NCBI GenBank assembly: GCA_028712695.1
Contig: JAQTQZ010000001.1
Span: 62,001-126,000 of the forward strand
Origin: Methylovulum sp.
GTDB lineage: Bacteria > Pseudomonadota > Gammaproteobacteria > Methylococcales > Methylomonadaceae
Direction of reading: 5' to 3'
DNA length: 64,000 nucleotides
Of the stretch, positions 14,571 through 32,150 are shown piece after piece; position 1 is the stretch's first letter; every line of letters starts with the position of its first letter. The translations under genes and the position numbers were made by a program. The notes under the pieces are model-generated. The model was not told the origin of the DNA and searched no databases. It was given only the letters and a program-made list of their open reading frames with translations.

Positions 14571-14958
14571 ATCCCAAATTCCAAGGTCATGGTCAAAACC
14601 GTGTTGGTGGTATTTTACCGAATGGGCAGATTACGTTGAACCGCACCTAACCTACCGTGGCGCTGCGTTTGACGTTTGCCGCTATATTGTGGGCGCGTTA
14701 AAGTCCAAAGCGCCATTTGGATTGGTTTTGGATGATGGGGGATGGTTGTCGGCAAACGACCCTTTGCGGACTTCACTGCCTTAGGCTTTAATGGCCGTAG
14801 TAAACTTTATACCTGCCGTTCGTAAGCATAAAATTGCTTGATTGAGACCCCAGTACCTCATATACTTCAAATCATTTTTACTCCTTTTCATCATCTATAA
14901 TTTGGCATTGACTGTGGTCAATTGATTGGGCATCAAAGCTTACGGGATCTGGACGAAT
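14571..14958. other. 388-bp spacer between draG and the three-gene cassette
   Basis: The first half holds the moaE remnant. The second half (14780-14958) is AT-rich and contains TATAAT at 14896-14901, a possible -10 for the cassette, without a clear -35. No other gene is seen. Confidence 0.5.
14597..14760 (+). pseudogene. Decayed duplicate of the moaE 3' end
   Basis: Two frames together reproduce the last third of the MoaE encoded at 12271-12726. The first part reads NRVGGILPNGQITLNRT and then stops (MoaE: HRVGAILPNEPIVLV). After a frame change the second part reads YRGAAFDVCRYIVGALKSKAP and then GGWLSAND (MoaE: HRGDAFDASRYIMEALKSRAP, RWLVAN). Stops and frameshifts make it non-functional. 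It lies just downstream of draG, in the same orientation as moaE, so draTG is bracketed by moaE sequence. Confidence 0.8.
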
Positions 14959-15654: not shown

Positions 15655-16154
15655 GTACTGCTTCAGCAAGCTTATTAAAAGAAAATGATACTACCAATAG
15701 CTATTATCAAGAACCATCCAAATACAGATATGGTAAAGATGGTACCGATATGTTTTCTACAAAAGAACCAGAAATTCGACCTCGTAGCAAGAAACTCCCT
15801 TTCGATGTAATTGATCTCACAAAGCCAAGAGAAGAAATTAGGCAACGATGGCGTGGAGTCGTAGTCAGTTCGAACGAGGAAGAATTAACCGTTCAACTAG
15901 AAGATAGTACCAACTCTGAAAATCCGAATGAATTGGTTGTTTTATCAAGGGACGAAATAGACGCTAAAGATCAAATCCTAATCGAACCCGGTGCATTGTT
16001 CGATTGGTACATAGGCTATAGACAAGGGCAAAAATACAGTAGGGAACGTTTTTCAACTATTCGTTTTCGTCGCCTACCACCATGGACAGCGGCTGAAATT
16101 CGAGACGCTGAAAAATTAGCTGGGGAGTACGCTGATTTTTTTCTCGCCGATTAA
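15651..16154 (+). CDS. Unknown protein B of three-gene MBL cassette
   Basis: 167 aa. The start overlaps the stop of gene A by 4 bp (ATGA). The first 60 residues are polar and probably disordered. From about residue 63 there is a compact beta-rich region (WRGVVVSSNEEELTVQLED) reminiscent of a small barrel, followed by IEPGALFDWYIGYR and TIRFRRLPPWTAAEI. No enzyme motif is recognised. It could be an adaptor or nucleic-acid-binding component of the cassette; this is speculation. Confidence 0.65.
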   Translation: MSTASASLLKENDTTNSYYQEPSKYRYGKDGTDMFSTKEPEIRPRSKKLPFDVIDLTKPREEIRQRWRGVVVSSNEEELTVQLEDSTNSENPNELVVLSRDEIDAKDQILIEPGALFDWYIGYRQGQKYSRERFSTIRFRRLPPWTAAEIRDAEKLAGEYADFFLAD

Positions 16155-17253
16155 AAATACACTGCCGGATATCGCTTGCGCTGAAATATCCCTTTTCGGT
16201 CCAGGAATTGGTGAATGTATAGTACTTAACTTTGGAGAAGGCCGCTGGTTTATCATTGACAGTTGCCTTTGCCCGACTACTAAACAACCAATTGCCCTTA
16301 ATTACTTACAGTCTATTGGGGTAGATGTAAGCCAACAAGTGGTTGGTATCTTGATCACACATTGGCATTCAGACCATATCGAAGGGGCATCAGCCTTGTT
16401 AAAGGCTTGTCATAATGCTAAGTTGTATTGTTCCATCGCTCTATTGAAAAAAGAAGCTTTCCAACTCACGGCACTATATAAAAAAGATATATTCGCCGAT
16501 ACCGACAAGGAAATTCGGGAATTCAGAGAAATTATCGAGTTTCTCAGAGAGACAGGAGATAGAAACCGCTTCGCGCCCGTCAAAAGCAGGCATACTTTTT
16601 TTGATTACAGAAATACGGTATCAACACGTCTGGTTGCATTATCACCTAGCGACGTTGCTGTCACCCAATCTATTGCATCCTTAACTCAATTGGCAGAGAA
16701 ACAAGGTAAACGCCGCGCTAGAAATATTGTACCGACAAGTGAGAATCTCAATGCCGTGGCACTCCATTTTTCTTTCGGCAATCTTTCGGTTCTGTTAGGC
16801 TCTGACCTGGAGGAAACCGGCAATCCACAGACAGGTTGGTCTGCTATTTTCAAAGACCAGATCATTAACGAATTAAGTTTACCTGTCGCTTCATTATTTA
16901 AGGTTTCTCACCATGGCAGTGAAACCGGGTATCACGATAAGATTTGGCAGGAGCTCTTGATTGAATCGCCTTTATCGATGACAACTCCTTACACTCGAAG
17001 CAGCTTACCAACAGCCGATAATATTAATAAGCTACAAAGGTTATCTTCCCAATTTTTAATCACCAGAGATCCTCAAGCAAATAAAAGGATTAAACGAGAA
17101 AATATGGTGGAAAGGGAGCTCCGATCCATTGTCAAAGATAGAAAAACTATTAATGACAAAATGGGCCATATTCAAATACGCATTACCATCGATGGAAATT
17201 TGAATATTTCGGGCAATGAAAATGCGTTTAAATTTACAAGCACAGCCCTTTAA
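16135..17253 (+). CDS. ComEC-like metallo-beta-lactamase-fold hydrolase, no canonical start codon
   Basis: About 372 aa. The metal motif THWHSDH lies at residues 75-81, the bridging Asp in LLGSDLEE near 224 and a ComEC-type HHGSE near 259. The first GTG (16339) would start inside the fold. In-frame coding upstream (CAEISLFGPG, GECIVLNFGEGRWFIIDSC) clearly belongs to the protein, yet from the preceding stop at 16117 to 16339 there is no ATG, GTG or TTG. A good Shine-Dalgarno (GGGGAG, 16122-16127) lies 7 nt before ATT at 16135, which I use as start. A frameshift from gene B at the T7 run (16136-16142) is the alternative. Substrate unknown; nuclease or cyclic-nucleotide hydrolase are options. 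Confidence 0.7.
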   Translation: MFFSPIKNTLPDIACAEISLFGPGIGECIVLNFGEGRWFIIDSCLCPTTKQPIALNYLQSIGVDVSQQVVGILITHWHSDHIEGASALLKACHNAKLYCSIALLKKEAFQLTALYKKDIFADTDKEIREFREIIEFLRETGDRNRFAPVKSRHTFFDYRNTVSTRLVALSPSDVAVTQSIASLTQLAEKQGKRRARNIVPTSENLNAVALHFSFGNLSVLLGSDLEETGNPQTGWSAIFKDQIINELSLPVASLFKVSHHGSETGYHDKIWQELLIESPLSMTTPYTRSSLPTADNINKLQRLSSQFLITRDPQANKRIKRENMVERELRSIVKDRKTINDKMGHIQIRITIDGNLNISGNENAFKFTSTAL

Positions 17254-17603
17254 TGATGTGGTCGATTGGAATGATCATGGGCTGGAAGAAGCCCTTAACT
17301 ATATTCTTTTCCACCTCATGGGCATGTTTGGCGAGAAGATGGCTGCAAAACAAAAGCACCATCCATGCGGTGAAAGCATGCGTCAATGCCTAAGTTTCTC
17401 AAAGCCAGTGTGTGCTAGGGCTGACAGCTTTAAGTTTATCAGCAGCCATGCGCTGAAATCTTTGAGCGTCTCAAACTGGCCGACTGGTATCATTCGTTGT
17501 AGGATAAGTGGCCTACGCTTGGCACACATGACCATTAACAATGTACATAAACTACTCCGATTTACTCAGGCCATAACTCAAACAGAACCACTACCAGCAA
17601 TTG
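17254..17603. other. 350-bp region without a recognised gene
   Basis: Several short open frames on both strands (for example a 131-codon plus-strand frame that starts inside the MBL gene) but none has a ribosome-binding site, a family signature or a plausible protein composition. It may be decayed mobile or coding DNA between the cassette and the HD-GYP remnant. Confidence 0.4.
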
Positions 17604-18008
17604 CTACTTAATCCACATCAGGTTGGTAGTCATCCAAGAATTGCCAGCGTATTGCCGGTAGACCTTTTCGGTGATGAACACATCATATAAATCGGGGGCG
17701 ATGTGTTGGTTGTCTTTTAATTTTTTCAAAATTGCCAAGGCTTCAGAAAGTTTTTTGCCTTGTTTATAAGGCCGGTCTTTGGCGGTGAGCGCTTCAAAAA
17801 TATCGGCAATTGCCATGGCGCGTGCTTGAATGGACATTTGTCCGCGTTTCAGGCCTTTGGGATAGCTGGTGCCGTCCATTTTTCGTGGTGGCCGCCTGCG
17901 TTTCGGGGACGTTTTTTTAGGTGTTTAGGGAACGCTATCTTGTCCAGCATGGCAATGATGGTGTCCTTAAAAGCTTCAACCACTACCCGATTTTGAAACC
18001 ATTGGGTG
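17604..18008 (-). pseudogene. C-terminal remnant of a GAF-HD-GYP phosphodiesterase
   Basis: Reading on the minus strand from the kdpE stop: VVVEAFKDTIIAMLDKIAF, then PKHLKKRPRNAGGHHEK. A frame break follows at a T run (17879-17883, one base short), and the new frame reads MDGTSYPKGLKRGQM, then ARAMAIADIFEALTAKDRPY and DVFITEKVYRQYA. These are the GYP motif and C-terminus of HD-GYP proteins. The HD catalytic core and everything before it are missing here. The matching GAF fragment lies upstream of the kdp operon at 28424-28625 on the same strand. Confidence 0.85.
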
Positions 18009-18704
18009 CTAGACCTTGAGCCGGTAGCCTACACCTGATTCCGTCAATAAATACTGGGGCTGCGTTGGGTTGGTTTCCAGTTTCTGTCTGAGTTGGCTCA
18101 TGTAAATACGCAGATAATGTGAATTATCCTTATACGACGGCCCCCATACTTCCTTGAGAATAGTTTGGTGCGTCAATACCTTGCCGGCATTTTTAATCAG
18201 CACGGACAATAGCCGGTACTGGATCGGCGTAAGATGGACTTCCCTGTCGTCAACAAAGACCTGCCGCTTCAGTAAATCGGCTTTCAACGCGCCGGTAGTA
18301 AAAACGCCAGCCTGATCCTGCACCGGACTGCTTGCCGAATGACGCAGGGCTACCCGGATCCTCGCAAGTAATTCACCTAAACCAAACGGTTTGATCAGGT
18401 AATCGTCAGCACCCGCATCTAGGGCCTCGATTTTATGTTGCTCGGTACTGCGTGCGGACAAGATAATAATAGGTACGATTGACCAGTTCCTTATGGCTTT
18501 GATAACGTCAACACCGTCTATGTCAGGCAATCCCAAATCTAGGATGATGAGGTCAGGTTTTCGCACGCCTGCTTCAATAATGCCTTGCCGGCCATTATTT
18601 GCTTCGGACACTTTAAAGCCATGAGCGCCAAGGCCAGTCCGCAAAAATAGGCGTATCGCAGGATCATCCTCAATGACAACAATAATAGGGCTGGCATTAG
18701 TCAC
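18009..18704 (-). CDS. kdpE: Response regulator KdpE
   Basis: 231 aa from a GTG start that overlaps the kdpD stop by 8 bp. An OmpR-type regulator: receiver domain with acidic pocket (IEDD near residue 12), phospho-acceptor Asp in LIILDLGLPDIDG near residue 55 and Lys in LIKPFGLGEL near residue 104. The C-terminal winged helix carries LTPIQYRLLSVL and TESGVGYRLKV. Activates the kdp operon when phosphorylated by KdpD. Last gene of the K+ island; its stop abuts the HD-GYP remnant. Confidence 0.95.
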   Translation of the reverse strand: MTNASPIIVVIEDDPAIRLFLRTGLGAHGFKVSEANNGRQGIIEAGVRKPDLIILDLGLPDIDGVDVIKAIRNWSIVPIIILSARSTEQHKIEALDAGADDYLIKPFGLGELLARIRVALRHSASSPVQDQAGVFTTGALKADLLKRQVFVDDREVHLTPIQYRLLSVLIKNAGKVLTHQTILKEVWGPSYKDNSHYLRIYMSQLRQKLETNPTQPQYLLTESGVGYRLKV

Positions 18705-21465
18705 GGCTATTCAAAACCTTGGCAACGCATTCTTCCTGTTCCATCATCGGTGGCGCATGATCGAGTGGAATTATGAATGAAAAGACCGCACCGCCAGTTG
18801 GTCGGTTTTGTGCTTGAATGCTCCCGCCATGCACTTCAACGATGGCCTTGCATATTGCCAAACCTAGACCTACCCCGCTTTGCGCCGCCTCGCACTGAAC
18901 CCGATAAAATTTTTCAAACAGCTTGTCTTTAGAGCCTTCGGGAACACCTGGCCCTTGATCGGCTAGCGAAATTTCCACCGCATCAGCCGAGGCTTCCGCC
19001 CTGATTTCCAAAGGGCTTCCATCCCGTGTGTAACGCAGGGCATTTTCCAGCAGATTGATCAAAACCTGTTCGATCATCACCGCATCGACATAAATCATCG
19101 GGGTGCCATCTGGCAATTTAACGGTCACCTGCCGGTTTGCCAGGCGTTTTTGCAAACGCGTCAAGACAGCGCCGATAATTTCCTCAAGCGGATACCATTG
19201 TCTGTCCAGCTTAATGGTACCTGCGTCAAGCCGTGCCATATCCAAGATATTGTTGACCAGGTTCGACATCCGTTGCGCTTCGTCATAAATGGCGCGGCTC
19301 AATTCAAGCTTGTCTTCAGCCTTAAGTGCATGGTCTTCCTCGACTAAGGTGCTGGCTGAACCGACGATGGTCGCCAAGGGTGTGCGCAAATCATGCGAGA
19401 TGGAACTGAGCAACGAGTTCCGCAAGCGTTCGGCTTCCATTTCCACCTGCGTTTTCCTGGCTTGTTCGGTCAACCTGACACGGGTAATCGCTTGGGCAAT
19501 CTGCCCAAGAAAGGTTTCCAGCAATTTCTTTTGTTCTGGCAGAAATATCCTGCGCAAATTAACGGGTAGTAAAACCAGAACACCCAACATGGTTTCTTTG
19601 ATGCTCAGCGGGAAATACACGGCCTCGGCGCCCGGCAAGGTATTGGTGCCTTGGCCGGCAATCTCGTCATGATCAAAAACCCACTGGGCAACGCTCAGGT
19701 CGGCGGCATGCAGTGATTCAGGCAGAACTAGGCTGGTAGGATAAACAATCCTACCGTTGGTGTCAGGAAACAGAATGACGTTAAGGCTGCCGAATTCCGA
19801 ATAGAGATGATGTACCGCCGTGCGCACGATTTCATCCTCGCTCTGGCTTGCCGTCAGATCCTTAGCTATCGCGTAAAGAACCGTCGCGCGCCGCTCACGA
19901 TGCCCAGCCACCTTGGCCTGGGAGCGCACATTAGCCATCAGGTTGCTGATTAACATTGCCACGGTCAGCATCGCCAGCAGCGTCACCAGGTATTGGCTGT
20001 CGGCTACCGTAAAACTGAAAAAAGGGGTTACGAAGAATAGATCAAATATCGCAACACCGAGAAAAGACGCCAAAATGGACGGCCCGCGCCCAAACCGCGT
20101 AGCAATAAAAACGACGCCCAGCAAAAACACCATAATCAGGTTGGCTAGCTCAAATCTGCCGAACATCAGATAAGCCAGCACGGTGCTGGCGATTGTCACG
20201 ACCACTGCCCAGACATAGCCCATCGTGTTTTTTTTTCGCGATGACTGTTTCCTGCTAAGCCCAGGTAACGGGTTTTTCCGATACAGGGAAAGCTCCGGTT
20301 TATCCCCATTACCGTCCTTTCCGGGTCTGGGGCTACCCAACAGATAGAGGTTGATGTTGTGCGCTTCAGTAATCAAAACATCAACCACCGACCCCAGCAG
20401 CAAACGCTTCCAGCCCCGGCGGGTCGGTTTGCCCATGACAATCTTGGTCACATTCCGTTCATTGGAATATTTGATGATGGCGGTACTCATTTCCGGTGCA
20501 CTCAAGGTCGCGGTTTCAGCACCCAATTGTTCCGCTAAACGCAAAATACGCAGCACACCATCCCGTTTTTCCGCTGGCAAGCGTTGCAGTTCGGGCGTTT
20601 CGACATAGACGACTATCCAACTGGCGCGCAGGCTGGTGGCAAAGCGCTTGCCTGCGCGGACCAGACGCTCGGCCAAGGGATTCGGGCCTATGCAAACCAG
20701 GATGCGCTCGCTGACCTGCCAGACTTCACGGATAAAATTATCTTCGCGGTAATCCAGCATCTGCGCGTCGACGCGATTGGCGGTTTGCCGCAGCGCCAGT
20801 TCCCGCAAGGCAATCAGATTGCCTTTACGGAAAAAATTTTTGATGGCTTCCTGTGCCTGTTGCGGCAAATAAACCTTGCCGTCTTTGAGCCGGTCGAGCA
20901 GTTCGTCAGGGGGCAGGTCCACCAATTCGATTTCATCGGCCTCTTCAAACACTGTATCCGGCACGGTCTCCCAGACCCGTATACCGGAAATCTGGCCTAT
21001 ATCGTCATTAAGGCTTTCCAGATGCTGTACATTGAGCGCCGTATAGACATCGATGCCGGCATCGAGGAGCTCTTCGATGTCCTGCCAACGCTTGGGATGA
21101 CGACAACCCTGTGCATTGGTGTGCGCCAGTTCGTCAACCAGAATGATCGAGGGCTTGCGTTTGAGCGCTGCATCCAGATCGAATTCCCGCAAAGTCGTCC
21201 CGCGATATTCAATCCGCTTGGGCGGCAACACCTCCAACCCTTCCATCAAGGCGGCGGTTTCCTTGCGGCCATGGGTTTCCACCAGACCGACAATGATGTC
21301 GATATTTTCAGATCGTCTCTCCCTGGCCGCCAGCAGCATGGCATAGGTCTTGCCGACGCCTGCCGCCGCGCCGAAAAAAATCTTCAGCCGTCCCCGGCTG
21401 GCGCGGGATTGGTCACGCTCGACGCGGGCGAGCAGTTCGTCTGGATTGGGGCGTTCGCTGTTCAT
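18697..21465 (-). CDS. kdpD: Sensor histidine kinase KdpD
   Basis: 922 aa. Order: N-terminal KdpD domain with Walker A GAAAGVGKTYAML near residue 32 and VDELAHTNA near 110; a universal-stress-type domain (about 250-370); basic linker and four membrane segments (about 410-510); GAF-like region; HisKA with phospho-acceptor His in SSISHDLRTPLATIVGSAS near 680; HATPase with NLLENALRYTRDG and GVGLGLAICKAIV. Senses K+ limitation. It lies 37 bp after corA and overlaps kdpE. Confidence 0.96.
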   Translation of the reverse strand: MNSERPNPDELLARVERDQSRASRGRLKIFFGAAAGVGKTYAMLLAARERRSENIDIIVGLVETHGRKETAALMEGLEVLPPKRIEYRGTTLREFDLDAALKRKPSIILVDELAHTNAQGCRHPKRWQDIEELLDAGIDVYTALNVQHLESLNDDIGQISGIRVWETVPDTVFEEADEIELVDLPPDELLDRLKDGKVYLPQQAQEAIKNFFRKGNLIALRELALRQTANRVDAQMLDYREDNFIREVWQVSERILVCIGPNPLAERLVRAGKRFATSLRASWIVVYVETPELQRLPAEKRDGVLRILRLAEQLGAETATLSAPEMSTAIIKYSNERNVTKIVMGKPTRRGWKRLLLGSVVDVLITEAHNINLYLLGSPRPGKDGNGDKPELSLYRKNPLPGLSRKQSSRKKNTMGYVWAVVVTIASTVLAYLMFGRFELANLIMVFLLGVVFIATRFGRGPSILASFLGVAIFDLFFVTPFFSFTVADSQYLVTLLAMLTVAMLISNLMANVRSQAKVAGHRERRATVLYAIAKDLTASQSEDEIVRTAVHHLYSEFGSLNVILFPDTNGRIVYPTSLVLPESLHAADLSVAQWVFDHDEIAGQGTNTLPGAEAVYFPLSIKETMLGVLVLLPVNLRRIFLPEQKKLLETFLGQIAQAITRVRLTEQARKTQVEMEAERLRNSLLSSISHDLRTPLATIVGSASTLVEEDHALKAEDKLELSRAIYDEAQRMSNLVNNILDMARLDAGTIKLDRQWYPLEEIIGAVLTRLQKRLANRQVTVKLPDGTPMIYVDAVMIEQVLINLLENALRYTRDGSPLEIRAEASADAVEISLADQGPGVPEGSKDKLFEKFYRVQCEAAQSGVGLGLAICKAIVEVHGGSIQAQNRPTGGAVFSFIIPLDHAPPMMEQEECVAKVLNSRD

Positions 21466-21502
21466 GATAATTGGTCTCGCGCATCGTGCGTGTAATTTTA
21501 AT

Positions 21503-22510
21503 TTACAGCCAGCCGGCTCTTTTCAGGCGCAGGTACAGCAGCAGACTGCTAAACGCCACGCCGCCGACCACCACAGGATAGCTGTACTCCCAATCCAGCT
21601 CCGGCATGTGCCTGAAATTCATTCCGTACCAGCTGAATACCATGGTGGGTATCGCCAGGATCGCTCCCCAGCCGGCCAGCCGTTTGACGACTTCGTTCTG
21701 CCGCACCGTTTCAAAGGTCAGATGTACCTGCATCGCCGCGACCAACATCTCGCGCATGCCGTGAATCGCTTGATCGATACGTTTGATGTGATCGGCAATA
21801 TCGCGAAAATACACCTGCACATCTTTGGGAATAACTCCGCTATGAAAGCGCATCAGCTCGTTGCAAATATCGATGACCGGATTAATGGCGCTTTCCAGCT
21901 GCAACAACTCGCGCTTTAGTTCGTAAAGGCCTTCTATAGTCTGCTTACTGGGCTGATATTGAAAAATTGCCGACTCCAGCACATCGAACCGCACCTGTAA
22001 GCCGTCAATAACCGGCACATAGTTATCGACGATAAAATCCATGATCGAATACAGCGCAAATCCCGGCCCTTTGGCCAATTGCTGCGGCATGGCCTCGCAA
22101 CGCTCCCTGATTTTGCTGTGACTGCGCGAAGCGCCGTGCCTGACCGTCACTAAAAAACGCGGCCCCAAGAAAATATGAGTTTCACCAAACTCGACCTGAT
22201 CTTCCGCAAGATGGGCGGTATGCAACACCATGAACAGCGATTCGCCGTATTCCTCGATTTTCGGACGCTGATGCGCCACGCAGGCATCTTCGATAGCCAA
22301 GTCATGCAGCCCGAATTCCTCTTGGATTTTAGCTAGCAGCCCGTTGTTCGCCTCGCGCAATCCCAGCCAGACAAAGGTGTCTTCCCGTTTCAACACTTCG
22401 CTGATGTCTTCGATCGTGACATCGCCGATATTGATGCCATTTTGATAGGCTACGCACTTCATGATCATGCGGTTATCGATAGTATCTGTCAAAAACGTTT
22501 CCCTCTGCAT
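21503..22510 (-). CDS. corA: CorA-family magnesium/cobalt transporter
   Basis: 335 aa from the ATG at 22510 (GAGG 8 nt upstream). Large acidic cytoplasmic domain, long helix (FDVLESAIFQYQPSKQ, LYELKRELLQLESAI), then two C-terminal membrane segments with the diagnostic selectivity motif YGMNFRHMPEL between them. Passive divalent-cation channel. Being placed between the K+ channel and kdpD on the same strand is unusual and suggests co-regulation with K+ uptake. Confidence 0.93.
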   Translation of the reverse strand: MQRETFLTDTIDNRMIMKCVAYQNGINIGDVTIEDISEVLKREDTFVWLGLREANNGLLAKIQEEFGLHDLAIEDACVAHQRPKIEEYGESLFMVLHTAHLAEDQVEFGETHIFLGPRFLVTVRHGASRSHSKIRERCEAMPQQLAKGPGFALYSIMDFIVDNYVPVIDGLQVRFDVLESAIFQYQPSKQTIEGLYELKRELLQLESAINPVIDICNELMRFHSGVIPKDVQVYFRDIADHIKRIDQAIHGMREMLVAAMQVHLTFETVRQNEVVKRLAGWGAILAIPTMVFSWYGMNFRHMPELDWEYSYPVVVGGVAFSSLLLYLRLKRAGWL

Positions 22511-22833
22511 GGTCAAGGCCTCACGGATATAGTCACGCCGGACCTCATAAGGCTACCTCTATCTGGTCGCGTTGAACCGCTGAGCTTGAACGTTCTCCTG
22601 AAGGGTGGCGAGAATCTCCCTGCATTGTGAAGAAATCAACCTTATCTTTCCTAGATGGCTCTGCTAACTTGATATTTTGCTCGATTTTATCCATTGCTTG
22701 ATTGTTCACCTTTTCAATATGGGCCTTATCGCATAAAACGTCCATCAAATCATCGTGCAGGCAGAGTAAGGTTCACTAGCCAATCCGTCCATTCATTGGA
22801 GCAGGATATTGCTGGTCGGTTAACAGGCCGGTC
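22511..22833. other. 323-bp spacer between K+ channel and corA genes
   Basis: A 67-codon minus-strand frame (22545-22748) has no family signature and a weak start; I do not call it a gene. The stretch nearest corA contains repeated CGTGA and GC-rich short repeats that could fold in the corA leader, but I recognise no known riboswitch. Confidence 0.35.
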
Positions 22834-23313
22834 TTAGTCGGTGTTCGATGACAACTGCTTCTCCAGCGTCTCCATGCGCTGGTGTAATCGGGCCAGCTCA
22901 GCAAGAATCCGGTCTTCTCCGGTTTGCATGTCACCCGCTTCCTGTTCGATTCGCCGTAAATTACCTCCTATGACATCCATATTCCTGCCAATCAGCGTCA
23001 CCGAAATCAGGGCGGTAAATAAAGAAAAAAATACTAAGCCCAACAAAATCAGTCCCGCCGCGAGCAAACGACCTAAAAAGGAGACCGGCACCACGTCGCC
23101 GAAACCCACATGGGTCATCGTCACCCAGGCGGACCAAATACCATCCAGCGGCGATTTGATATTGGGATCGACCAGGAAAAGCATCAATCCGACAGCTATG
23201 GTCGCCATGATCGCAAGCAAGACCAAGTAACCCAGCTTTCTGGTCTTGAAGAGGTCGCCTCTGAGACTGTTCCCCCATTGGATCGCGTTATTGCATTCTT
23301 CTAAACAGCGCAT
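22834..23313 (-). CDS. Two-helix potassium channel
   Basis: 159 aa. Membrane segment 1 at about residues 30-48, a pore loop with selectivity filter THVGFGDVVP near residue 89 (variant of TVGYGD), membrane segment 2 at about 95-125, then a cytoplasmic coiled-coil-like tail (RIEQEAGDMQTGED, LHQRMETLEKQL). It lacks an RCK domain. GGAG precedes the ATG. Encoded between the PepSY-like gene and corA in the K+ island, so it probably balances Kdp-driven uptake with passive flux. Confidence 0.85.
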   Translation of the reverse strand: MRCLEECNNAIQWGNSLRGDLFKTRKLGYLVLLAIMATIAVGLMLFLVDPNIKSPLDGIWSAWVTMTHVGFGDVVPVSFLGRLLAAGLILLGLVFFSLFTALISVTLIGRNMDVIGGNLRRIEQEAGDMQTGEDRILAELARLHQRMETLEKQLSSNTD

Positions 23314-23336
23314 AAGTTGTTCTCCTCTAAAAACTA

Positions 23337-23639
23337 TCAGAATACATCATCGACCAGCATTTGCTCACGGCTGATGCTCCCGGTTGCCAAATCGCACAAC
23401 ACCAGCCATTCTGAGCCGTCGCGTGCCGCTATCTCGTGCCGCACCGAAAAAGCGCCGTGCCGATGCAGTATTTGCTGTTTCTCGAAGACCCCAGGATGCA
23501 AAAGCAGCGCCTCTCGCCCGCAAGATTCGATGTAAACCTTGCTGGGAGGCAAGGTATAGCGCTCGGCTATGTTTGCATCCGCGCCAGCAGCGGCCGACAG
23601 GGAGGCCGCCAATATTAATAAGCTATAGCTAAGTTTCAT
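23337..23639 (-). CDS. Small secreted PepSY-like protein
   Basis: 100 aa from MKLSYSLL (23639); longer in-frame starts overlap kdpC and lack a signal peptide. Residues 1-23 are a signal peptide. The remainder (VYIESCGREALLLHPGVFE, HEIAARDGSEWLVLCDLATG) has the strand-helix-strand look of a PepSY domain and two cysteines. Located between kdpC and the K+ channel. PepSY domains often inhibit or modulate neighbours; a role in modulating the Kdp or channel proteins from the periplasm is inference. Confidence 0.65.
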   Translation of the reverse strand: MKLSYSLLILAASLSAAAGADANIAERYTLPPSKVYIESCGREALLLHPGVFEKQQILHRHGAFSVRHEIAARDGSEWLVLCDLATGSISREQMLVDDVF

Positions 23640-23653
23640 GACAGATTCCAAGT

Positions 23654-24229
23654 CTAGCGCAAGGCATCTAACGCCAGATTTAAGGTCAGGACATTGACCC
23701 GCGGCTCGCCAAACACACCCCATTGCCGGGCTTCGGTGTGGGCTTCAACCAGGGCGCGGAGTTTTTCCAGGGGTATATGACGCGCCTTGGCGACACGATT
23801 GATTTGATAATCCGCCGCCGCAGGGCTGATATGCGGGTCTAGCCCGCTACCCGATGCGGTAACCAAATCGACCGGAACAGGTGCTTTATTATCGGGATCG
23901 GCTGCTTTTAAGGTGCCAATACGCGCTTTAACGGCATCCACCAGGGCAGGATTAGTCGGCCCCAGATTAGAGCCGCTGGACGCTCCGGCGTTATATGCGT
24001 AGGGGCTGGTGGCGGAAGGCCGTCCCCAAAAATGGTTAGGGTTGCTGAACGGCTGCCCAATCAGGTTAGACCCCGTCGTGTTGCCGCTGCTGCCGGTCAT
24101 CAGGCTGCCGTTGGCCTGATTGGGGAACAGCAACTGCGCCAGGCCTGTGACCACGGCGGGATAAACCACGCCTGTCAACACAGTGAAGATTACAAACAAA
24201 ACAACCGCAGGTTTTAAATGCTTAACCAT
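23654..24229 (-). CDS. kdpC: Potassium-transporting ATPase subunit KdpC
   Basis: 191 aa from the ATG at 24229, which has AAGGAG 6 nt upstream. One N-terminal membrane helix ([19 protein letters not shown]), then the periplasmic domain with [20 protein letters not shown] and the C-terminal [11 protein letters not shown]. KdpC stabilises the KdpFABC complex and raises K+ affinity. 10 bp after kdpB. Confidence 0.96.
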
Positions 24230-24239
24230 TGCCAACTCC

Positions 24240-26312
24240 TTAAACCAGGCCCAGCGTGACCAGAATCTGGTCTATCACTTTAATGCCAATAAATGGGACG
24301 ATTAATCCGCCGACGCCGTAAATCAGCAAATTGTTTTGTAACAGCGTGGCGGCTCCGACGGGTTTGTATTTGATGCCTTTTAAGGCCAGCGGAATCAGCG
24401 CGACGATAATCAGCGCGTTGAAAATCACGGCGGACAGTATAGCGCTGGCCGGTGTCGCCAACCCCATTACATTCAAGACGTTCAGCACCGGATAGGTGGT
24501 GGCGAATGCAGCGGGGATAATTGCGAAATATTTGGCGACATCATTAGCAATTGAGAATGTCGTCAACGCGCCGCGCGTCATCAGCATTTGTTTGCCGGTT
24601 TCGACGATTTCAATCAATTTGGTGGGGTTGGAATCCAGATCGACCATATTGCCTGCTTCCTTGGCTGCCTGGGTGCCGCTGTTCATCGCCACGGCGACAT
24701 CGGCTTGCGCCAGCGCCGGCGCGTCGTTAGTGCCGTCACCGGTCATCGCCACCAGACGGCCCTCGGCCTGGTATTGGCGGATTAATTTCAGTTTCGCTTC
24801 TGGCGTCGCTTCGGCGAGAAAATCATCGACCCCCGCTTCGGCGGCAATCGCCGCAGCCGTCAGGCGGTTATCGCCGGTAATCATGATGGTTTTGATGCCC
24901 ATCTGGCGCAATTCGGCAAAACGTTCTTTGATGCCGCCCTTGACGATGTCCTTAAGCTCGATGACCCCCAGCACGCGCGTGCCTTCCGCCACCACCAGCG
25001 GCGTGCTGCCGCGCCGGGCCACGTCATCAACCACTTTGCGGAACTCCGGCTGAAACTTGCCGCCCAGCCCTTCAATATAAACTCGGATGGCGTCAGCCGC
25101 GCCTTTGCGGATTTGCCGTCCCTCAAGATTAACGCCGCTCATGCGGGTTTGGGCGCTGAAATGCACGAAAGTCGCCCCCAGCGTATGCACATCCCGTTCC
25201 CGGAAGCCGTATTTCTGTTTTGCCAACACGACCACGCTACGTCCTTCAGGGGTTTCGTCAGCCAGTGAAGCCAATTGCGCGGCATCGGCCAGTTCTTTTT
25301 CAGCGACGCCTTTAACGGCGATGAACGCGGCCGCCTGCCGGTTTCCCAAGGTAATCGTGCCGGTCTTATCCAGCAGCAACACGTCGATGTCGCCCGCCGC
25401 TTCCACGGCCCGGCCCGATGTGGCGATGACGTTTTTTTGCATCATGCGGCCTATGCCCGCCACGCCGATGGCGGACAGCAAGCCGCCGATAGTGGTCGGG
25501 ATCAAACAAACCAACAAGGCCACCAGCACGGTGAGGGTGATCGGTTGTCCTGCACCCGCAGTTTCCACGGCGTACAAGGAAAATGGCAGCAAGGTCACGG
25601 TCGCCATCAGGAACACCAGCGTTAAGGCCACCAACAAAATGGTCAAGGCAATTTCGTTGGGCGTTTTTTGCCGCTTGGCGCTTTCCACCATAGCAATCAT
25701 GCGGTCTAAAAAAGCTTCGCCGGGATTGGCGGTGATGCGCACGACCAGCCAGTCCGACAGCACGCGCGTACCGCCGGTCACCGAACTGAAATCGCCGCCC
25801 GATTCGCGGATCACCGGCGCGCTTTCGCCAGTGATCGCGCTTTCATCCACCGAGGCGACGCCTTCAATGACTTCGCCGTCACCCGGCACAAAATCGCCCG
25901 CTTCGATTAAAACCGTATCGCCGCGCCGCAAACTGGAGCCTGCGACTTTGGAATAGTTAGAGCCATAACGCGGCTCATCGAGTTTTTTCGCGGCAATATC
26001 GCGCTTGGCGCTACGCAAAAATGCCGCCTGCGCCTTGCTGCGGCCTTCGGCGACCGCTTCGGCAAAGTTGGCGAACAGCACCGTACCCCATAGCCATAAG
26101 GTGATCGCCAAAATGAAGTTGGCGGGGTCTTTGCCCTCGCCGTTAAGCGCCAGCACCCACAATAGCGTGGTCAGCATACTGCCCAGGTAAACGACAAACA
26201 TCACCGGGTTTTTCCATTGCTGCTGCGGGGCCAGTTTGCGGAAGGAATCCATCAGGGCTGCGCCCAGGATTTGAGTATCGAATAAAGACATCGAAATTGA
26301 TTTATTGCTCAT
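24240..26312 (-). CDS. kdpB: Potassium-transporting P-type ATPase subunit KdpB
   Basis: 690 aa from the ATG at 26312 (a GTG at 26327 is possible). P-type ATPase: phosphatase loop ITGESAPV, phosphorylation Asp in [13 protein letters not shown] near residue 305, nucleotide-binding KGAADAI, and hinge [17 protein letters not shown]. It energises K+ import through KdpA at the inner membrane. Lies 24 bp after kdpA. Confidence 0.97.
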
Positions 26313-26336
26313 TAGGGTATCTCTCACAAATAGTGA

Positions 26337-28136
26337 TTATTTGGACGCTTCAACGCCGATCATCTGCAAATGCTCAACCACCGGCCCCAACGCCAGCGCA
26401 GGCACAAACGTCAGCGCCCCGACCATCAATACAGTGCCGATCAATAACGCCACAAACAGCGGCGTATGCGTAGGCAAAGTGCCAGGCCCCACCGGCACGA
26501 TCTTTTTCGCCGCCAGGGAACCTGCGATAGCCAGCACCGGCACGATCAGCCAAAAACGCGAGAACAACATCGCCACGCCCAACAGCGTGTTATAAAACGG
26601 CGTGTTCGCCGACAGCCCGCCAAATGCGCTGCCGTTGTTGTTGCCTGCTGAGGAGAACGCATACAGCACCTCGCTGAAACCGTGCGCGCCGGGATTGAAG
26701 ACCGAGGCCTTACCGGCAGCAAGCATGACCGCAAGCGCAGTACCGCCCAAAACCATCAGCGGCGGGATTAAAATCGTGACAGCGGCCATTTTCATCTCGT
26801 AGGCCTCGATTTTTTTGCCCAGATATTCGGGCGTGCGGCCTATCATCAAACCGGACACAAATACCGCGACGATCGCAAACATAATCATGCCGTATAGCCC
26901 GGAACCCACGCCGCCGAAGATCACTTCACCCAGTTGCATCAGCCACATCGGCACCAGGCCGCCGATAGGGGTGAAAGAATCGTGCATGGCATTGACCGAA
27001 CCGTTGGACGCCGCCGTGGTGGCAACCGCCCACAGCGCGGAGTTGGCGATGCCAAAGCGCGTCTCTTTGCCTTCCATATTGCCGCCGGACTGGTCTATGC
27101 CCAATGCCGCCAGTGCCGGATTGCCGCTTTGTTCTGCCGGCACCTCAACAAAAACCAGCCCAACCAACACCAGCGTCATCGCCGCCAGTATCGCCCAGCC
27201 TTGGCGGGTGTCGCCCACCATCATGCCGAAGGTGTAGCACAGCGCGCCGGGAATCAGCAGTATCGAGAGCATTTCCAAGAAGTTGCTCAACGGGGTCGGG
27301 TTCTCTAGTGGATGCGCCGAGTTGACATTGAAAAAGCCGCCGCCGTTGGTGCCCAGTTGTTTGATAGCCACTTGCGATGCCGCAGGGCCGACGGCAATAA
27401 CTTGCTGTTTGACTTCGACCGTTTCCATGACCGGATTGCCCTTGGCGTCTTGCAGCGCCACACCGTCCGCGCCCAGTTTAGGCTGTTCATAACTGACGGT
27501 TTCCATCAGCGGTACGGTTTGAGAGGGGTTGAAAGTCTGCACCACGCCCTGTCCGACCAACGCCAACGCCAAAATCAATGACAGCGGCATCAGGATATAC
27601 AATGTGCTGCGGGTCATATCCACCCAAAAATTGCCGATGCTGTCGCTGTTACGGCGGACAAAGCCCCGGATCAACGCGACCAGCACCGCCATGCCGGTAG
27701 CGGCGGAAACAAAATTCTGCACGGTAAGTCCCAGCATCTGGGTCAGGTAGCTCATCGTTGTTTCGCCGCCATAGCCTTGCCAGTTGGTGTTGGTGGCGAA
27801 ACTGACGGCGGTGTTGAAAGCCGAGTCCGGGCTGACCCCGGCCAGATTCTGTGGGTTAAAAGGCAGATAGGCTTGCAGGCTTTGCAACGAGAATACCGCC
27901 GAAAATCCCAATAAGTTAAATATCAGTAAACCTATGGCATAATCCGTCCAGCGCATGTCCTCTTGCGGATTCACGCCGCTTAGGCGATAGATTAATGTTT
28001 CGATGGGAGCCAATAGCCGGTTTAAACCCACCGGCTCATCGGCATAAACCCTAGCCATATACCAGCCCAAGGGTTTTGCCAGCGCCAGCAGGGTAACGAT
28101 ATAAAACGTAATTTGAATAAAACTGTTACTGGTCAT
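26337..28136 (-). CDS. kdpA: Potassium-transporting ATPase subunit KdpA
   Basis: 599 aa, ten or more membrane segments. KdpA holds the K+ selectivity filter; the four family loops are seen as ATNTNWQGYGGETTMSY, GTNGGGFFNVNSAHPLENP, AASNGSVNAMHDSFTPIGG and SAGNNNGSAFGGLSANTPF. The start overlaps the kdpF stop by one base. Confidence 0.97.
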   Translation of the reverse strand: MTSNSFIQITFYIVTLLALAKPLGWYMARVYADEPVGLNRLLAPIETLIYRLSGVNPQEDMRWTDYAIGLLIFNLLGFSAVFSLQSLQAYLPFNPQNLAGVSPDSAFNTAVSFATNTNWQGYGGETTMSYLTQMLGLTVQNFVSAATGMAVLVALIRGFVRRNSDSIGNFWVDMTRSTLYILMPLSLILALALVGQGVVQTFNPSQTVPLMETVSYEQPKLGADGVALQDAKGNPVMETVEVKQQVIAVGPAASQVAIKQLGTNGGGFFNVNSAHPLENPTPLSNFLEMLSILLIPGALCYTFGMMVGDTRQGWAILAAMTLVLVGLVFVEVPAEQSGNPALAALGIDQSGGNMEGKETRFGIANSALWAVATTAASNGSVNAMHDSFTPIGGLVPMWLMQLGEVIFGGVGSGLYGMIMFAIVAVFVSGLMIGRTPEYLGKKIEAYEMKMAAVTILIPPLMVLGGTALAVMLAAGKASVFNPGAHGFSEVLYAFSSAGNNNGSAFGGLSANTPFYNTLLGVAMLFSRFWLIVPVLAIAGSLAAKKIVPVGPGTLPTHTPLFVALLIGTVLMVGALTFVPALALGPVVEHLQMIGVEASK

Positions 28137-28225
28137 CAGAACTTCTCCGGATAGAACAGCGCGGCAATCAGATAAATGAACACAGCCAGCGCCAGTGCGG
28201 CACTTAACAGATAAATCCAGCTCAT
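28136..28225 (-). CDS. kdpF: Potassium-transporting ATPase subunit KdpF
   Basis: 29 aa, a single hydrophobic helix: MSWIYLLSAALALAVFIYLI, ending ALFYPEKF. The C-terminal YPEKF is typical of KdpF, the small stabilising subunit of KdpFABC. The stop overlaps the kdpA start by one base (TGATG), and the start overlaps the stop of the upstream 30-aa peptide gene (ATGA). Confidence 0.9.
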   Translation of the reverse strand: MSWIYLLSAALALAVFIYLIAALFYPEKF

Positions 28226-28314
28226 GACTGCCCCCTTAAAGACTCACAGGCATAAACCAGCAGGGCGGTGGCGGCAAAAAAAACAAGCGTCAAAAGAAGA
28301 TAAATACTGTCCAT
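28222..28314 (-). CDS. 30-aa membrane peptide preceding kdpF
   Basis: 30 codons: MDSIYLLLTLVFFAATALLV, then YACESLRGQS. One membrane helix with a short Cys-containing cytoplasmic tail. AGAGG lies 7 nt before the ATG, and the stop overlaps the kdpF start by 4 bp (ATGA), so it is translated and coupled to kdpF. Similar one-helix peptides occur ahead of kdpF in other bacteria from memory; function unknown, perhaps a second KdpF-like subunit. Confidence 0.75.
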   Translation of the reverse strand: MDSIYLLLTLVFFAATALLVYACESLRGQS

Positions 28315-28400
28315 AAAGTCACCTCTGATAAAACGACCAAAATTAAACCACTGATTACTGAATATTTTTTAAAATAGCAGCTTACAGTCTACTCTGGAAG

Positions 28401-28422
28401 GGTGTAAAAAATCTGTAAAAAT
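28401..28422 (-). promoter_or_regulatory. Candidate KdpE-binding direct repeat
   Basis: On the minus strand this reads TTTTTACA-GAT-TTTTTTACACC, two TTTTTACA units starting 11 nt apart (one helical turn). It closely resembles the known E. coli KdpE target TTTATACTTTTTTTACA. It lies about 90 nt upstream of the first small gene of the kdp operon, in the expected orientation. Confidence 0.6.
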
Positions 28423-28423
28423 T

Positions 28424-28625
28424 GGCGTTGATCAATTGCAGGATGCCGATGGTGTCGTCTTCATGATTTCTCATTTTGTACTGCTGGTGCCGCATCTGTG
28501 TAGATACGGCACAAGGTGCCGCTGTTGGTTTTGGTTTTTTGTAAAATCATTTCTAGCAGAGAATTGATGTTTTTCTCTGACGATAAAGCGGTGCTGATTT
28601 GGATAAGGTTGCCGGCCCCGTTCAT
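28424..28625 (-). pseudogene. GAF-domain remnant of a split GAF-HD-GYP gene
   Basis: Minus strand: a first frame gives MNGAGNLIQISTALSSEKNI, then NSLLEMILQKTKTNSGTL, the start of the GAF domain found in GAF-HD-GYP proteins, and stops at 28461. An overlapping frame gives MRNHEDDTIGILQLINA, the end of that GAF domain. The middle of the domain is deleted and the frame is broken. The C-terminal HD-GYP part lies at 17604-18008, beyond the kdp operon, on the same strand. Confidence 0.75.
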
Positions 28626-28809
28626 CACTGATTTTTTTGGTTGTCCACGATGACCGCTTGCAGAATAAAATGGCCTTGTTTTGATAAGGCGATGATTGCT
28701 GATATTTTAGTGGCGTATTCGGCTATAATTTTTACAGATTGTATGTGGTTGTCCAATAAACTCAGGTGGCAATCACTTTTTTCCAATTCCAAAACGGGTA
28801 AACAACGCT

Positions 28810-29268
28810 ATGATGAATTTAAGAGACTTGCTTGATGATCCAGACTTTGTAAAGTCAGTGCCCTACTGCAAAGAGCATTACAAAGCGCTTGATGTTATTC
28901 TCAATGAAGAAGAAGAAAGCCAGGATGTTTACTTTATTTTAGAGGGTGAAGTGCAAGTAAGCACTACCTTAGGCGAGCTGGGGCATAATCTTGAAAAATT
29001 TGTGCCAGGTTTGGCACGGTTGGTCAAGGGTGATTTTTTTGGAGAATTGTCGATGTTTGATGGCGAGCCGCGTAGCGCCCAAGTGACCGCTGAAACTGAT
29101 TGTGAAATAGCCAAAGTCGACGGCCCACAGATGATTGCTTTTATGGACAGGTTTCCTGAGAAAGGGTATTTCGTGTTGCGCGAACTGTTTATGAATTTGG
29201 TTTTCCGTATGAGGCAGAACAATATCCGCACTAAAACCGTGCTGGAGCTTTATTTGCAGGAAAGATAA
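28810..29268 (+). CDS. Stand-alone cyclic-nucleotide-binding domain protein
   Basis: 152 aa; a second ATG follows at 28813. A single cNMP-binding beta-roll: DVYFILEGEVQVS near residue 39, the phosphate-binding cassette GDFFGELSMFDGEPRSAQVTA near 75-95 with the key Glu and Arg present, then helices (LRELFMNLVFRMRQNN). No DNA-binding or kinase domain, so it is an adaptor-type cAMP/cGMP sensor. Single gene, divergent from the kdp operon. Confidence 0.85.
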   Translation: MMNLRDLLDDPDFVKSVPYCKEHYKALDVILNEEEESQDVYFILEGEVQVSTTLGELGHNLEKFVPGLARLVKGDFFGELSMFDGEPRSAQVTAETDCEIAKVDGPQMIAFMDRFPEKGYFVLRELFMNLVFRMRQNNIRTKTVLELYLQER

Positions 29269-29285
29269 GCGGGGCACTTTGCTTT

Positions 29286-29316
29286 TAGACGTACAAAACC
29301 CGTTTTTGTACGTCTA
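29286..29316. terminator. Perfect 13-bp hairpin between convergent genes
   Basis: TAGACGTACAAAA and TTTTGTACGTCTA pair perfectly around a 5-nt loop, 17 nt after the cNMP-protein stop and before the convergent acyltransferase stop. The A/T-rich inner stem suits a bidirectional terminator. Confidence 0.65.
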
Positions 29317-29372
29317 CTTGTTTGCTGGACAACTTTAGCCTTTCTGTGGTTCAAAGTTCCATTGGGCACTCT

Positions 29373-30425
29373 TCACCAGCCGATAACAAACCGGCTTTTC
29401 TCGCCTAAAACCCATTTAAAGCATGTCGCTATAACTAAAGAGACGGTTATGGCGAGCGTCATTGTCAGCAGGAAAATTAAAAAGTGCGGAAGAAATCTGA
29501 CATGGTCAATGAACGATGACTTGTATAAGAAATAAAGCACCCAAGGATGCAGGAAATAAATCGCAAAACTGGTTGATGCCAGATGTTTTAACAAAGGGAT
29601 TTCTTTATTTTCAAATTGTTGCAGTAGCGATAACAAGAAAAAACACATCAGTATTTTTTGTAGGATCATCGTGTCAATGCCATTAAATGAAAACAGCGTG
29701 ACTTTATTGAAATTTTCGGCATGGCCGTAAATTAACAGTTGCGCCACTGACATTAAAATAACGGCGGCGCCTAAGATAAATGTTTTTCCTGCCAGTAATT
29801 CAAAGAGGCGCTCTTTATGGCTAGAGCAAATGATGCCAAGCATGTAAACAGGGCAAAAATAAACGACGGAATGTATCGGCGACAGGTTGTGCATAGGGCG
29901 TTGGATAACCGTAGCAAGGCACAACAGCAAAATAAACCACCCTAGTTGGGTTTTTATGGGCAGTTCTATCTGCTTGATGAAGACCGGCGAAAGGGCAAAA
30001 ATAAGCATTATGAAGGGCACATACCAATAGGCAGTCAATAGCATGCCTGTCCACCAGTATTGCGCGAAGAGCTTAAGGTATTGCAGAAGGCTGTGAGGTT
30101 GCTGGCCGGTGATAAAAACTTCGGCAAAGGGAGGGTCATTCAAAAACAGCACCAAACAGATAAAAGCTAATAAGCACAGTATGCTGTAGGGCAATAACAC
30201 GTTGGTTGCTTTTTTCATCATAAAGCTTTTATACCGAAATTTAGGGTAAAAAATATGGTGGAAAAAAAAGCCGGAAATAAACACAAAAAAAGCGGTGCCG
30301 CCAGTGATTAGGCTGGCAACAATTTTTTCAAAAAATGAATGGGCGACCCAAGGCCCGTAAGAATGGCCGGCAACGATAAAAACAATGGCCAGACCTCTAA
30401 AATAATCGAATGAATTTAAGCGCAT
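29373..30425 (-). CDS. Acyltransferase family 3 membrane protein
   Basis: 350 aa, about ten membrane segments. N-terminal LNSFDYFRGLAIVFIVAGHS has the conserved R...H pattern of Acyltransf_3 (OafA/NodX-like) enzymes, followed by VFISGFFFHHIFYPKF. C-terminal SFAIYFLHPWVLYFL is also typical. Such proteins O-acetylate or O-succinylate extracellular polysaccharide or lipid sugars. Downstream of tpsB with a 62-bp gap, same strand; co-transcription is uncertain. Confidence 0.85.
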   Translation of the reverse strand: MRLNSFDYFRGLAIVFIVAGHSYGPWVAHSFFEKIVASLITGGTAFFVFISGFFFHHIFYPKFRYKSFMMKKATNVLLPYSILCLLAFICLVLFLNDPPFAEVFITGQQPHSLLQYLKLFAQYWWTGMLLTAYWYVPFIMLIFALSPVFIKQIELPIKTQLGWFILLLCLATVIQRPMHNLSPIHSVVYFCPVYMLGIICSSHKERLFELLAGKTFILGAAVILMSVAQLLIYGHAENFNKVTLFSFNGIDTMILQKILMCFFLLSLLQQFENKEIPLLKHLASTSFAIYFLHPWVLYFLYKSSFIDHVRFLPHFLIFLLTMTLAITVSLVIATCFKWVLGEKSRFVIGW

Positions 30426-30487
30426 GCTGTTTCCTTGCCTAGATGGCTAATATTTATAGATGCTACTTATGTTTGACGGAGGCGAAA

Positions 30488-32086
30488 CTAGAAACGCAAT
30501 ACTATACTAGCATGGATGCGGCTGTCGCCTGCGTGCGTGGACACGGCATTATTAAGTGCGTTAGCAACCGCGATTTTGGCCATGAGATGGTCTTGCCATT
30601 GCCAGTTTGCACCAATCCCCGTGCTGCTAAGGTTCCAATCTTTCAGTCCTGCCGGTAAGGCGGTGTTTTGGTAGCCGTGGCCATAATCATAAAAGGCAAA
30701 GAGACTAATTTTTTGCCAAGAAGGCGTGGTGATTTCAACTTTGACAATTTCTCCCGTGTCGGCACTGGTTTCCCGTTCCTGATAACCGCGCACATCATAG
30801 CTGCCGCCTATACCTAGTTGTTCGCCAGCGATCAGGGAGTCGCCGCTGTACTGGGCGGTGAATTGGGTTTGCACCAGCCATTGGCTGATATTGACGAACA
30901 TATTCGCGCCATAGCGTAATAAGTTCCAATTTTGTTTGGCGTTAAGGCGTGCCGCGCGGTAGTCGGCTTGGCTGTTACTGTCGCCGATGCCGGTGTTGCC
31001 GACCCACTGGACATGGTAGCTGGTGTGGGTGTTTTGCCATGGATATTCGGCTTTATAAAGCACGCTGACCGGCGAACTCCGGACATTGGCACCGACTTGG
31101 GTGTTTTGGAATTGAATGTCGTTGATGAAGTAACGGTTATCAAGCCCAAAGTCCAGCCAGTGTTCGTATTGGCCTAGTTTAGGTAAGAGCTGTTGGTAGT
31201 GCAGGCCTGCCATTTCGCCCGAACCGGTTATTGCCAAATCGGTTGCCACGACGCCGTTGTTGATGTTGGAGTGGGCATAATAGCCGCTGAGCCAGCCTTT
31301 TAATCGGTAGAGCGGCAGGCTGTAACTGGCGCCGTATTGCTCCACTTTGTCCGCATGGTCAGGCGAGGTGGTATAGCTGCCATTTATAATATGGTCTAGT
31401 CCCCATAGGTTGCTGTGCTGTAAGGCGCCGGTCAGACGGAAATTGCCGGTGCCTTTAGTCCCTACTGTGTTTAGCATCACCGATGCTTGGAAGGGGTGTT
31501 GTTCGGCAACATTGATTTTGGCATCGATTTGGTCGTCTGTTTGGCTTTTCTTAAAAGTTAAAGAAATCTGCTTGGCAGGATGTTTGTTGGCGACTTTTAA
31601 GTTTTGGGACAGTTCTTGGGTGTTAGGTGATTTGGCTATGGCAAGCCCCGGCATACTGGCGATGATGTTGTCTTTAGTAAAATAGCGGTTGCCCCCCACG
31701 TCGATTTTGCCGAGGGTAAAAGCAACGATGTGCAGTTTAACCTCGCCACCATCGAGTGTTTGCGGGGGCAAGCTCACCCGATAGAAAGGATGGCCTTGCT
31801 CACGGATGACCGCTTCAAGCCCATTGGCGACTTCCTGTAATTGTTTGAGGTTGTATTGGCGATGTTGTAAAGGCTGTAAATAGCTATCCATTGCTTGTTG
31901 GGACAGCGGCGACGTGCCGTCAACGTTGAAATGGCTAACGGTGAATTTGATTTCTGTGGGCGTGGTGGCGGCTGGGCAGGGCGCCGCGAGCAGGCCTAGA
32001 CTGGTGGTCATGAGCAGCCGGCAGAACAGGCGGGTTGGACGCTCAGGCGTTGTTGTGCTGGCTTTTTGATGGTGATGTGAGGTCAT
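30488..32086 (-). CDS. Two-partner secretion transporter (ShlB/FhaC family)
   Basis: 532 aa. Signal peptide with a long basic N-region, POTRA-like domain (FTVSHFNVDGTSPLSQ, FTLGKIDVGGNRYF) and a 16-strand barrel. The FhaC loop-6 motif VRGY is present in GGSYDVRGYQERE near residue 425, and the protein ends in HASIVLRF, a barrel C-terminus. It exports the TpsA protein encoded at 33662-38128, with which it shares strand and locus. Confidence 0.9.
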   Translation of the reverse strand: MTSHHHQKASTTTPERPTRLFCRLLMTTSLGLLAAPCPAATTPTEIKFTVSHFNVDGTSPLSQQAMDSYLQPLQHRQYNLKQLQEVANGLEAVIREQGHPFYRVSLPPQTLDGGEVKLHIVAFTLGKIDVGGNRYFTKDNIIASMPGLAIAKSPNTQELSQNLKVANKHPAKQISLTFKKSQTDDQIDAKINVAEQHPFQASVMLNTVGTKGTGNFRLTGALQHSNLWGLDHIINGSYTTSPDHADKVEQYGASYSLPLYRLKGWLSGYYAHSNINNGVVATDLAITGSGEMAGLHYQQLLPKLGQYEHWLDFGLDNRYFINDIQFQNTQVGANVRSSPVSVLYKAEYPWQNTHTSYHVQWVGNTGIGDSNSQADYRAARLNAKQNWNLLRYGANMFVNISQWLVQTQFTAQYSGDSLIAGEQLGIGGSYDVRGYQERETSADTGEIVKVEITTPSWQKISLFAFYDYGHGYQNTALPAGLKDWNLSSTGIGANWQWQDHLMAKIAVANALNNAVSTHAGDSRIHASIVLRF

Positions 32087-32150
32087 AATTAATATAACAA
32101 TGTCAATCTGGAATGCTTAAAGGTGGACGCCGCCGTTATTAAACCGTTTT

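Follow-up and report, generated by a model that had tools for sequence, protein, structure and literature searches.

A kdp operon lies within a broken GAF-HD-GYP gene in a Methylovulum genome

The kdpFABC-kdpDE operon encodes a K+-transporting P-type ATPase and a two-component system, and its gain as a block is already known. Work on methanotrophs from acid soils placed KdpFABCD of Methylobacter KS41 with Methylovulum and not with Methylobacter, against the species tree; the KS41 urea transporter genes group likewise, and acquisition was proposed for the urea genes (PMC6119699). Types IV and V of the staphylococcal arginine catabolic mobile element (ACME) carry kdp as well (PMC7029739). We analysed 64,000 nucleotides of a Methylovulum sp. 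genome (the window, G000:C19:62001-126000; the genome, G000, comprises 3.79 Mb in 110 contigs), in which a kdp unit of ~10.4 kb lies between two pieces of a decayed gene for a GAF-HD-GYP protein, a protein of the cyclic di-GMP (c-di-GMP) phosphodiesterase type. As in KS41 and ACME, to go by the passages of those papers that treat kdp, the operon behaves here as an accessory block. ACME, however, is a mobile element of its own, and nothing of that sort was seen in the window; the Kdp passages of the KS41 study describe no insertion site, unlike the present case (PMC6119699). Among the papers listed in a literature search, none was seen to describe a kdp insertion at this site, its junctions or the broken target. 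Our comparison set consisted of 61 genomes, 20 of them from the window's GTDB genus.

Both GAF-HD-GYP fragments were present on the minus strand, in the correct order on either side of kdp, as the original prediction had proposed. The HD-GYP piece contains an open reading frame (ORF) of 91 amino acids (17604-17879) that matches Pfam HD_5 with E 4.6e-17, and its homology extends to ~17995. The GAF piece (28607-28424) is the beginning of a GAF domain in broken frames. When 14 relatives' proteins, picked with the HD-GYP half, were compared with the window (tblastn, E<0.5), all 14 matched both fragments, in the correct order on the same proteins. Only the nearest relative (G016, E 2e-9 and 3e-5) gave strong GAF matches; those of the most distant ones were weak (L018, E 0.36; L019, E 0.099). 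Because this protein set had been picked by the HD-GYP half, we searched the GAF half separately as DNA in the 61 genomes, most of which were scored for the best 12 first-look candidates only. Four non-self genomes matched (G016, G034, G014 and G009), each in the same orthologous gene. The HD-GYP piece matched 26 of the 61 genomes, its own included (E up to 1e-8); in 12 genomes the close matches lay in open frames of 529-559 codons, the best being G016 with 91%. Residues 15-53 and 145-161 of the G016 protein match window positions 28607-28503 and 28474-28424, and residues 401-517 match 17995-17646.

Thus, rather than belonging to different subfamilies, the fragments lead to a single orthologue family, whose G016 member is the whole homologue that the original prediction expected to exist. 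Both decayed pieces derive from one 527-codon GAF-HD-GYP gene. No ORF runs through both the GAF and the HD-GYP domain in the window, where the kdp unit splits the gene and the frames are broken: this copy is a split pseudogene, whereas the G016 orthologue resembles described GAF-HD-GYP proteins. No second copy was found in G000, whose two matches both correspond to the HD-GYP remnant. Each remnant has lost an internal piece (Table 1), with 15 bp replacing the one missing from the GAF part, and both also carry small frame-breaking indels. The substitutions in the remnants are still mostly silent: the ratio of nonsynonymous to synonymous rates (dN/dS) is 0.10 (34 changes in all) versus 0.06-0.15 in four neighbouring genes. 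The decay is therefore recent relative to the split from G016.

G016 is the nearest genome found and belongs to the same GTDB genus. It carries the GAF-HD-GYP gene whole at the same place (L049:9840-11423, minus strand, 527 amino acids), with GAF and HD_5 domains and the motifs HDCGK and HHEKMDGTGYP, which we presume to have their usual meaning. No kdpA match was found in this genome, which is 99% complete. On one side of the gene, a cyclic nucleotide monophosphate (cNMP)-binding gene, an acyltransferase gene and two more genes, which we take to be TpsB-like and FecR-like, are collinear with window 28530-36384; on the other side, further out, moaC and moaE are collinear with window 10886-12745. 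The whole gene at the same place, its collinear flanks and the missing kdpA match support an insertion into this gene. Nine of the 20 genus genomes hold the gene at full or nearly full length; the whole form is therefore ancestral and the kdp-split form derived. A kdpA match was present in 13 of the 20 and absent from G016, G002 and G018. Six other genus members have both kdpA and this gene (G001, G007, G009, G010, G014 and G019). None of the six holds two separate intact GAF-HD-GYP genes: each has a single copy of full or nearly full length, which lies 0.65 Mb from kdpA in G019 and on a different contig in the other five. Separately, G006 has an N-terminal match to the gene (residues 1-70, 59%; G006:C49:7210-7419, L178) within a 174-codon open frame, which may be a further shortened copy; G006 carries kdp elsewhere.

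The right junction could be placed to one base. The window is homologous at the DNA level to the intact gene and the region upstream of it from 28840, the edge of the compared stretch, down to 28423, where this homology meets that to kdp with no filler. Of the 26 other genomes in which kdpA was matched, 14 were compared over their kdp stretches, and in six of these 14 loci kdp homology stops at that same base. Position 28423 is also where the operator box begins, which bears out the placement of a candidate KdpE site one base beyond the GAF fragment; we take the box to be of KdpE type from its comparison with the Escherichia coli box. On the left, the HD-GYP piece had been thought to span 17604-18008 and to abut the kdpE stop. 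The piece is there, but homology to the GAF-HD-GYP gene begins at ~17971 or ~17995, not at 18008, and the first 15-25 bases past the kdpE stop resemble the sequence that follows kdpE in relatives. Because TTTCAAAATCGG recurs after kdpE in relatives, while the intact gene reads CAAAACCGG at base 1077 and shortly afterwards GCTTTTAAAG at base 1092, the left join lies at ~17984 to 17971 or in the shared CAAAA-CGG, within a short stretch that can be read as either partner. Between the joins, ~600-615 bp of the gene are missing (base 478 to 1077-1092, codon 159 to ~359-364). No terminator-like site was called in the stretch downstream of kdpE. Close to the junctions, the longest word common to both sides has 9 bp, a length reached by 8 of 500 shuffles, and is part of the gene sequence; across 600-base junction zones it has 10 bp, which 53 of 200 shuffles attain.

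We consider it likely that a kdp unit entered the intact GAF-HD-GYP gene after the split from G016 and replaced part of it, that the remnants then decayed, and that the route was illegitimate recombination of incoming methanotroph DNA. Comparison with the whole allele shows that one complete transcription unit (operator, kdpF-A-B-C, genes for a small protein and a K+ channel, corA, kdpD-E and the sequence downstream of kdpE) entered in the same orientation as the gene, took the place of the ~600-615 bp and killed it. The remnants have lost further pieces, one between short repeats, and gained their indels; the order of these steps is our reconstruction. Entry would most likely have been by illegitimate recombination of DNA from a related methanotroph, and the price of gaining kdp would be one signalling gene of the c-di-GMP phosphodiesterase type. 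The proposed insertion of about 10.4 kb into the middle of the gene, with decay afterwards, is supported by the uninterrupted allele of G016, in which kdpA had no match. The event is a clear gene disruption of a familiar kind by an accessory operon, and nothing about it points to a new mobile element. Methanotrophs thereby gain one more case of kdp as an accessory trait. As a gain and loss the event is unusually well polarised: the nearest genome keeps the gene uninterrupted, the right junction is placed to the base at the operator, and the remnants can still be read.

As in the described operon, all core kdp genes of the unit are open and a KdpE-type box stands in front (Table 1). The unit differs from that operon by the small protein, the K+ channel, corA and a sensor gene remnant between kdpC and kdpD. 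This part of the operon also differs among relatives, and among 32 other loci compared only that of G033 has corA in its kdp stretch. The predicted contents (kdp, K+ channel, corA and kdpDE) were all seen as domain or family matches. We take the 29-residue ORF to be kdpF-like. From family membership, the unit would give high-affinity K+ uptake under its own KdpDE control.

Table 1. Features at the kdp insertion (window coordinates)
Feature	Position	Strand	Remarks
cNMP-binding gene	28810..29268	+	conserved; also right of the whole gene in G016 and others
5' remnant of GAF-HD-GYP gene (start region and part of GAF domain)	28424..28640	-	broken frames, ~260 bp missing inside
KdpE-type operator box, AATTTTTACAGATTTTTTACACC	28401..28423	-	gene homology and kdp homology meet at 28423, first base of the box
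30-aa membrane ORF upstream of kdpF	28222..28314	-	
kdpF-like ORF, 29 aa	28136..28225	-	read by eye
kdpA	26337..28136	-	over NCBIfam cut-off
kdpB	24240..26327	-	over NCBIfam cut-off
kdpC	23654..24235	-	over NCBIfam cut-off
102-aa protein, no family match	23337..23645	-	beside kdpC in several relatives too
K+ channel (Ion_trans_2)	22834..23313	-	
4HB_MCP-like sensor gene remnant	22562..22727	-	whole gene in G022 (L067:13572-14489) between kdpC and kdpD
corA-like transporter	21503..22516	-	just below NCBIfam cut-off, best-fitting model
kdpD	18697..21465	-	Pfam KdpD domain; best match PRK10490, below cut-off
kdpE	18009..18704	-	Pfam response regulator; best match PRK10529, below cut-off
kdp downstream stretch, TTTCAAAATCGG	17984..18008	-	recurs after kdpE in L065 and L067, loosely in L066
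3' remnant of GAF-HD-GYP gene (HD-GYP C-terminus)	17604..17971	-	broken frame, ~123 bp missing between GACACCA repeats

The operon need not have come from outside: an old kdp operon of this genome may have been moved here by rearrangement. We regard this as rather unlikely, although kdp occurs in the 13 genus genomes mentioned above and gene order is poorly kept within the genus. In the kdpABCDE tree, into which 18 of the best 80 loci from a KdpA scan of genome contigs were entered, G000 falls within the methanotrophs and outside the group formed by its nine other genus members (89%), beside the long branch Pavin48_27 (76%). The tree rejects G000 together with its expected relatives G008 and G017 (approximately unbiased test, p 3.6e-5). 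In polA+rpoB trees, G000 stands next to G016 (94.5% identity), grouped with G002, G018, G008 and G017 (support 0.994 in one tree, 91% in another). Of 50 picked window ORFs, kdpA and kdpB have the highest GC content at third codon positions (GC3), and kdpA exceeds polA in GC3 by 0.13 in G000 versus 0.02-0.06 in nine other genus members. The missing kdpA match in the nearest genome, and in G002 and G018 too, also speaks against relocation. Several results weigh against an arrival from outside. Monophyly of the genus in kdp is not rejected (p 0.33), a point that relocation can claim, and polA+rpoB fail to reject the kdp-like placement of G000 (p 0.097). The kdp data conflict with the species topology even without G000 (p 0.012), so the history of kdp in the genus is not clean elsewhere either. 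Large kdpA-polA offsets also occur in G020 and G022, of two other genera (0.12 and 0.17), and kdpD (GC3 0.607) and kdpE (0.522) of G000 are ordinary. No donor closer than 89% in KdpA was found in the 61 genomes and the best 80 loci: the best match among the genomes was 89% (G015), and a named close donor had to be abandoned because identity among the 80 loci was at most 88%. On balance, the kdp tree and GC3 lean toward acquisition from another methanotroph, unproven as it is, and in our judgement such a transfer, from a related methanotroph, has about twice the probability of relocation.

The loss of the gene need not be due to kdp either, since the gene may have been dead before kdp arrived, which would then have settled in sequence that was already decaying. 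Such an insertion costs nothing, and at least one further gain and one loss make a mosaic of the interval from moaE to the cNMP gene. The silent character of the remnant substitutions, within the range of the neighbouring genes, implies constraint for most of the time since the split and makes this order of events doubtful, about as much so as relocation.

The original prediction called kdp a movable K+ cassette. This label is supported only in part and goes beyond the evidence: we found no mobility gene among the main ORFs of the unit and no junction repeat clear of chance, and the changing neighbourhoods of kdp are matched by a housekeeping control. Among the 14 relatives, almost every kdp locus has neighbours of its own, the exceptions being G009 and G010, with flank genes in common, and G001 and G019, with one IS110-like ORF in common. 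By counts that are rough, since some loci lie so near a contig end that few or no flank genes are left on one side, kdp has a common flank gene in 2 of 45 same-genus pairs and polA in 1 of 45; over all pairs the counts are 2 and 11 of 105. For the GAF-HD-GYP gene itself, 11 of 66 pairs share a flank gene, 10 of them within G016, G010, G003, G001 and G002 and thus among the 36 pairs formed by nine genus members. Since polA is as poorly kept as kdp in the genus, we discarded the argument that shifting kdp neighbourhoods prove mobility: in this genus, a gene may have other neighbours in almost every genome without being mobile.

That a specific mobile element carries kdp in these bacteria, with the present site as one insertion, is accordingly very unlikely, even though flank genes are so rarely shared and kdp homology begins at the same base in 6 of 14 loci. 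The common start is the operator, which selection would keep anyway. No recombinase or transposase was present among the main island ORFs scanned, small and overlapping ORFs having been scanned in part. Short ORFs of 120-136 amino acids lie in or right after the kdp operons of four relatives (L061:531-905, L068:5047-5457, L063:727-1089 and L066:17160-17522) and weakly resemble the N-terminal DEDD part of IS110 transposases. They might be taken to favour an element, but their scores (17.5-22.4 bits) are below the Pfam cut-off of 29 and no such ORF was seen among the island ORFs.

Three other signs of mobility were tried and rejected. The word GGTAGTGGTT occurs just twice in the window, on either side of the HD-GYP remnant (17987-17978 and 17595-17586); two copies arise in 1 of 100 shuffles, and it once abuts kdpE in G008 (L070 about 8535). 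As an element end it fails, showing no enrichment over fetched sequences (8 distinct contexts, against 0-15 for 40 shuffled words). An insertion sequence beside the left fragment was dropped: a search with 17130-17625 found nothing in 25 other genomes and, in G000, just the query itself, and the ORF in this stretch has no Pfam or PADLOC match. Plasmid origin was dismissed as well, because 18000-25999 matches 699 plasmid records (645 at 60-80% identity, 54 at 80-90%), none over 80% of the query, which points to generic kdp similarity. The name cassette should wait for more junctions with common ends. A wider idea, which we hold to be improbable though less so than a dedicated element, is that in gammaproteobacterial methanotrophs kdp travels as a bare operator-to-terminator unit that enters by illegitimate recombination without an element of its own and has come to lie here behind the old GAF-HD-GYP promoter region. 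If so, a c-di-GMP signal may have been exchanged at the new site for K+ uptake driven by an additional promoter.

An assembly or binning artefact is hardly credible: the genome is in 110 contigs and the joins were judged from the assembled sequence alone, but two false joins would have to hit one and the same gene and preserve both order and orientation, and the pieces carry indels unseen in the G016 gene. An origin of the two fragments in unrelated genes can be dismissed, for short and broken as each is, both lead in order to one orthologue, best in the same genome.

The intact gene had been expected between homologues of the 14.9-17.3 kb and 28.8 kb genes. The right-hand expectation holds, with the cNMP gene beside the G016 gene; the left-hand one fails, the 14.9-17.3 kb genes being absent there and molybdate-type genes standing in their place, which is a separate difference. 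Compared with G016, the window lacks the solute-binding protein, porin and TOBE-domain regulator in the interval from moaE to the cNMP gene. It has a dRAT-dRAG pair (12852-14757 region) that the G016 locus lacks. Behind the pair comes a second, degenerate moaE 3' end at 14597-14757, which would fit an arrival of the pair through recombination at moaE. dRAT is present in six of the 20 genus genomes and not in G016; moaE beside dRAT was not found in short stretches from five other genomes. The HD-GYP remnant stands between two separate differences. In the same interval, at 14926-17253 on the plus strand, lie three ORFs with the lowest GC3 of the 50 (0.29-0.39), likewise absent from the G016 locus. 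The last has a metallo-beta-lactamase (MBL) fold and in PADLOC weakly matches RTasMBL (E 5.8e-6) and LmuA (E 1.5e-5). This block is possibly a defence-type unit.

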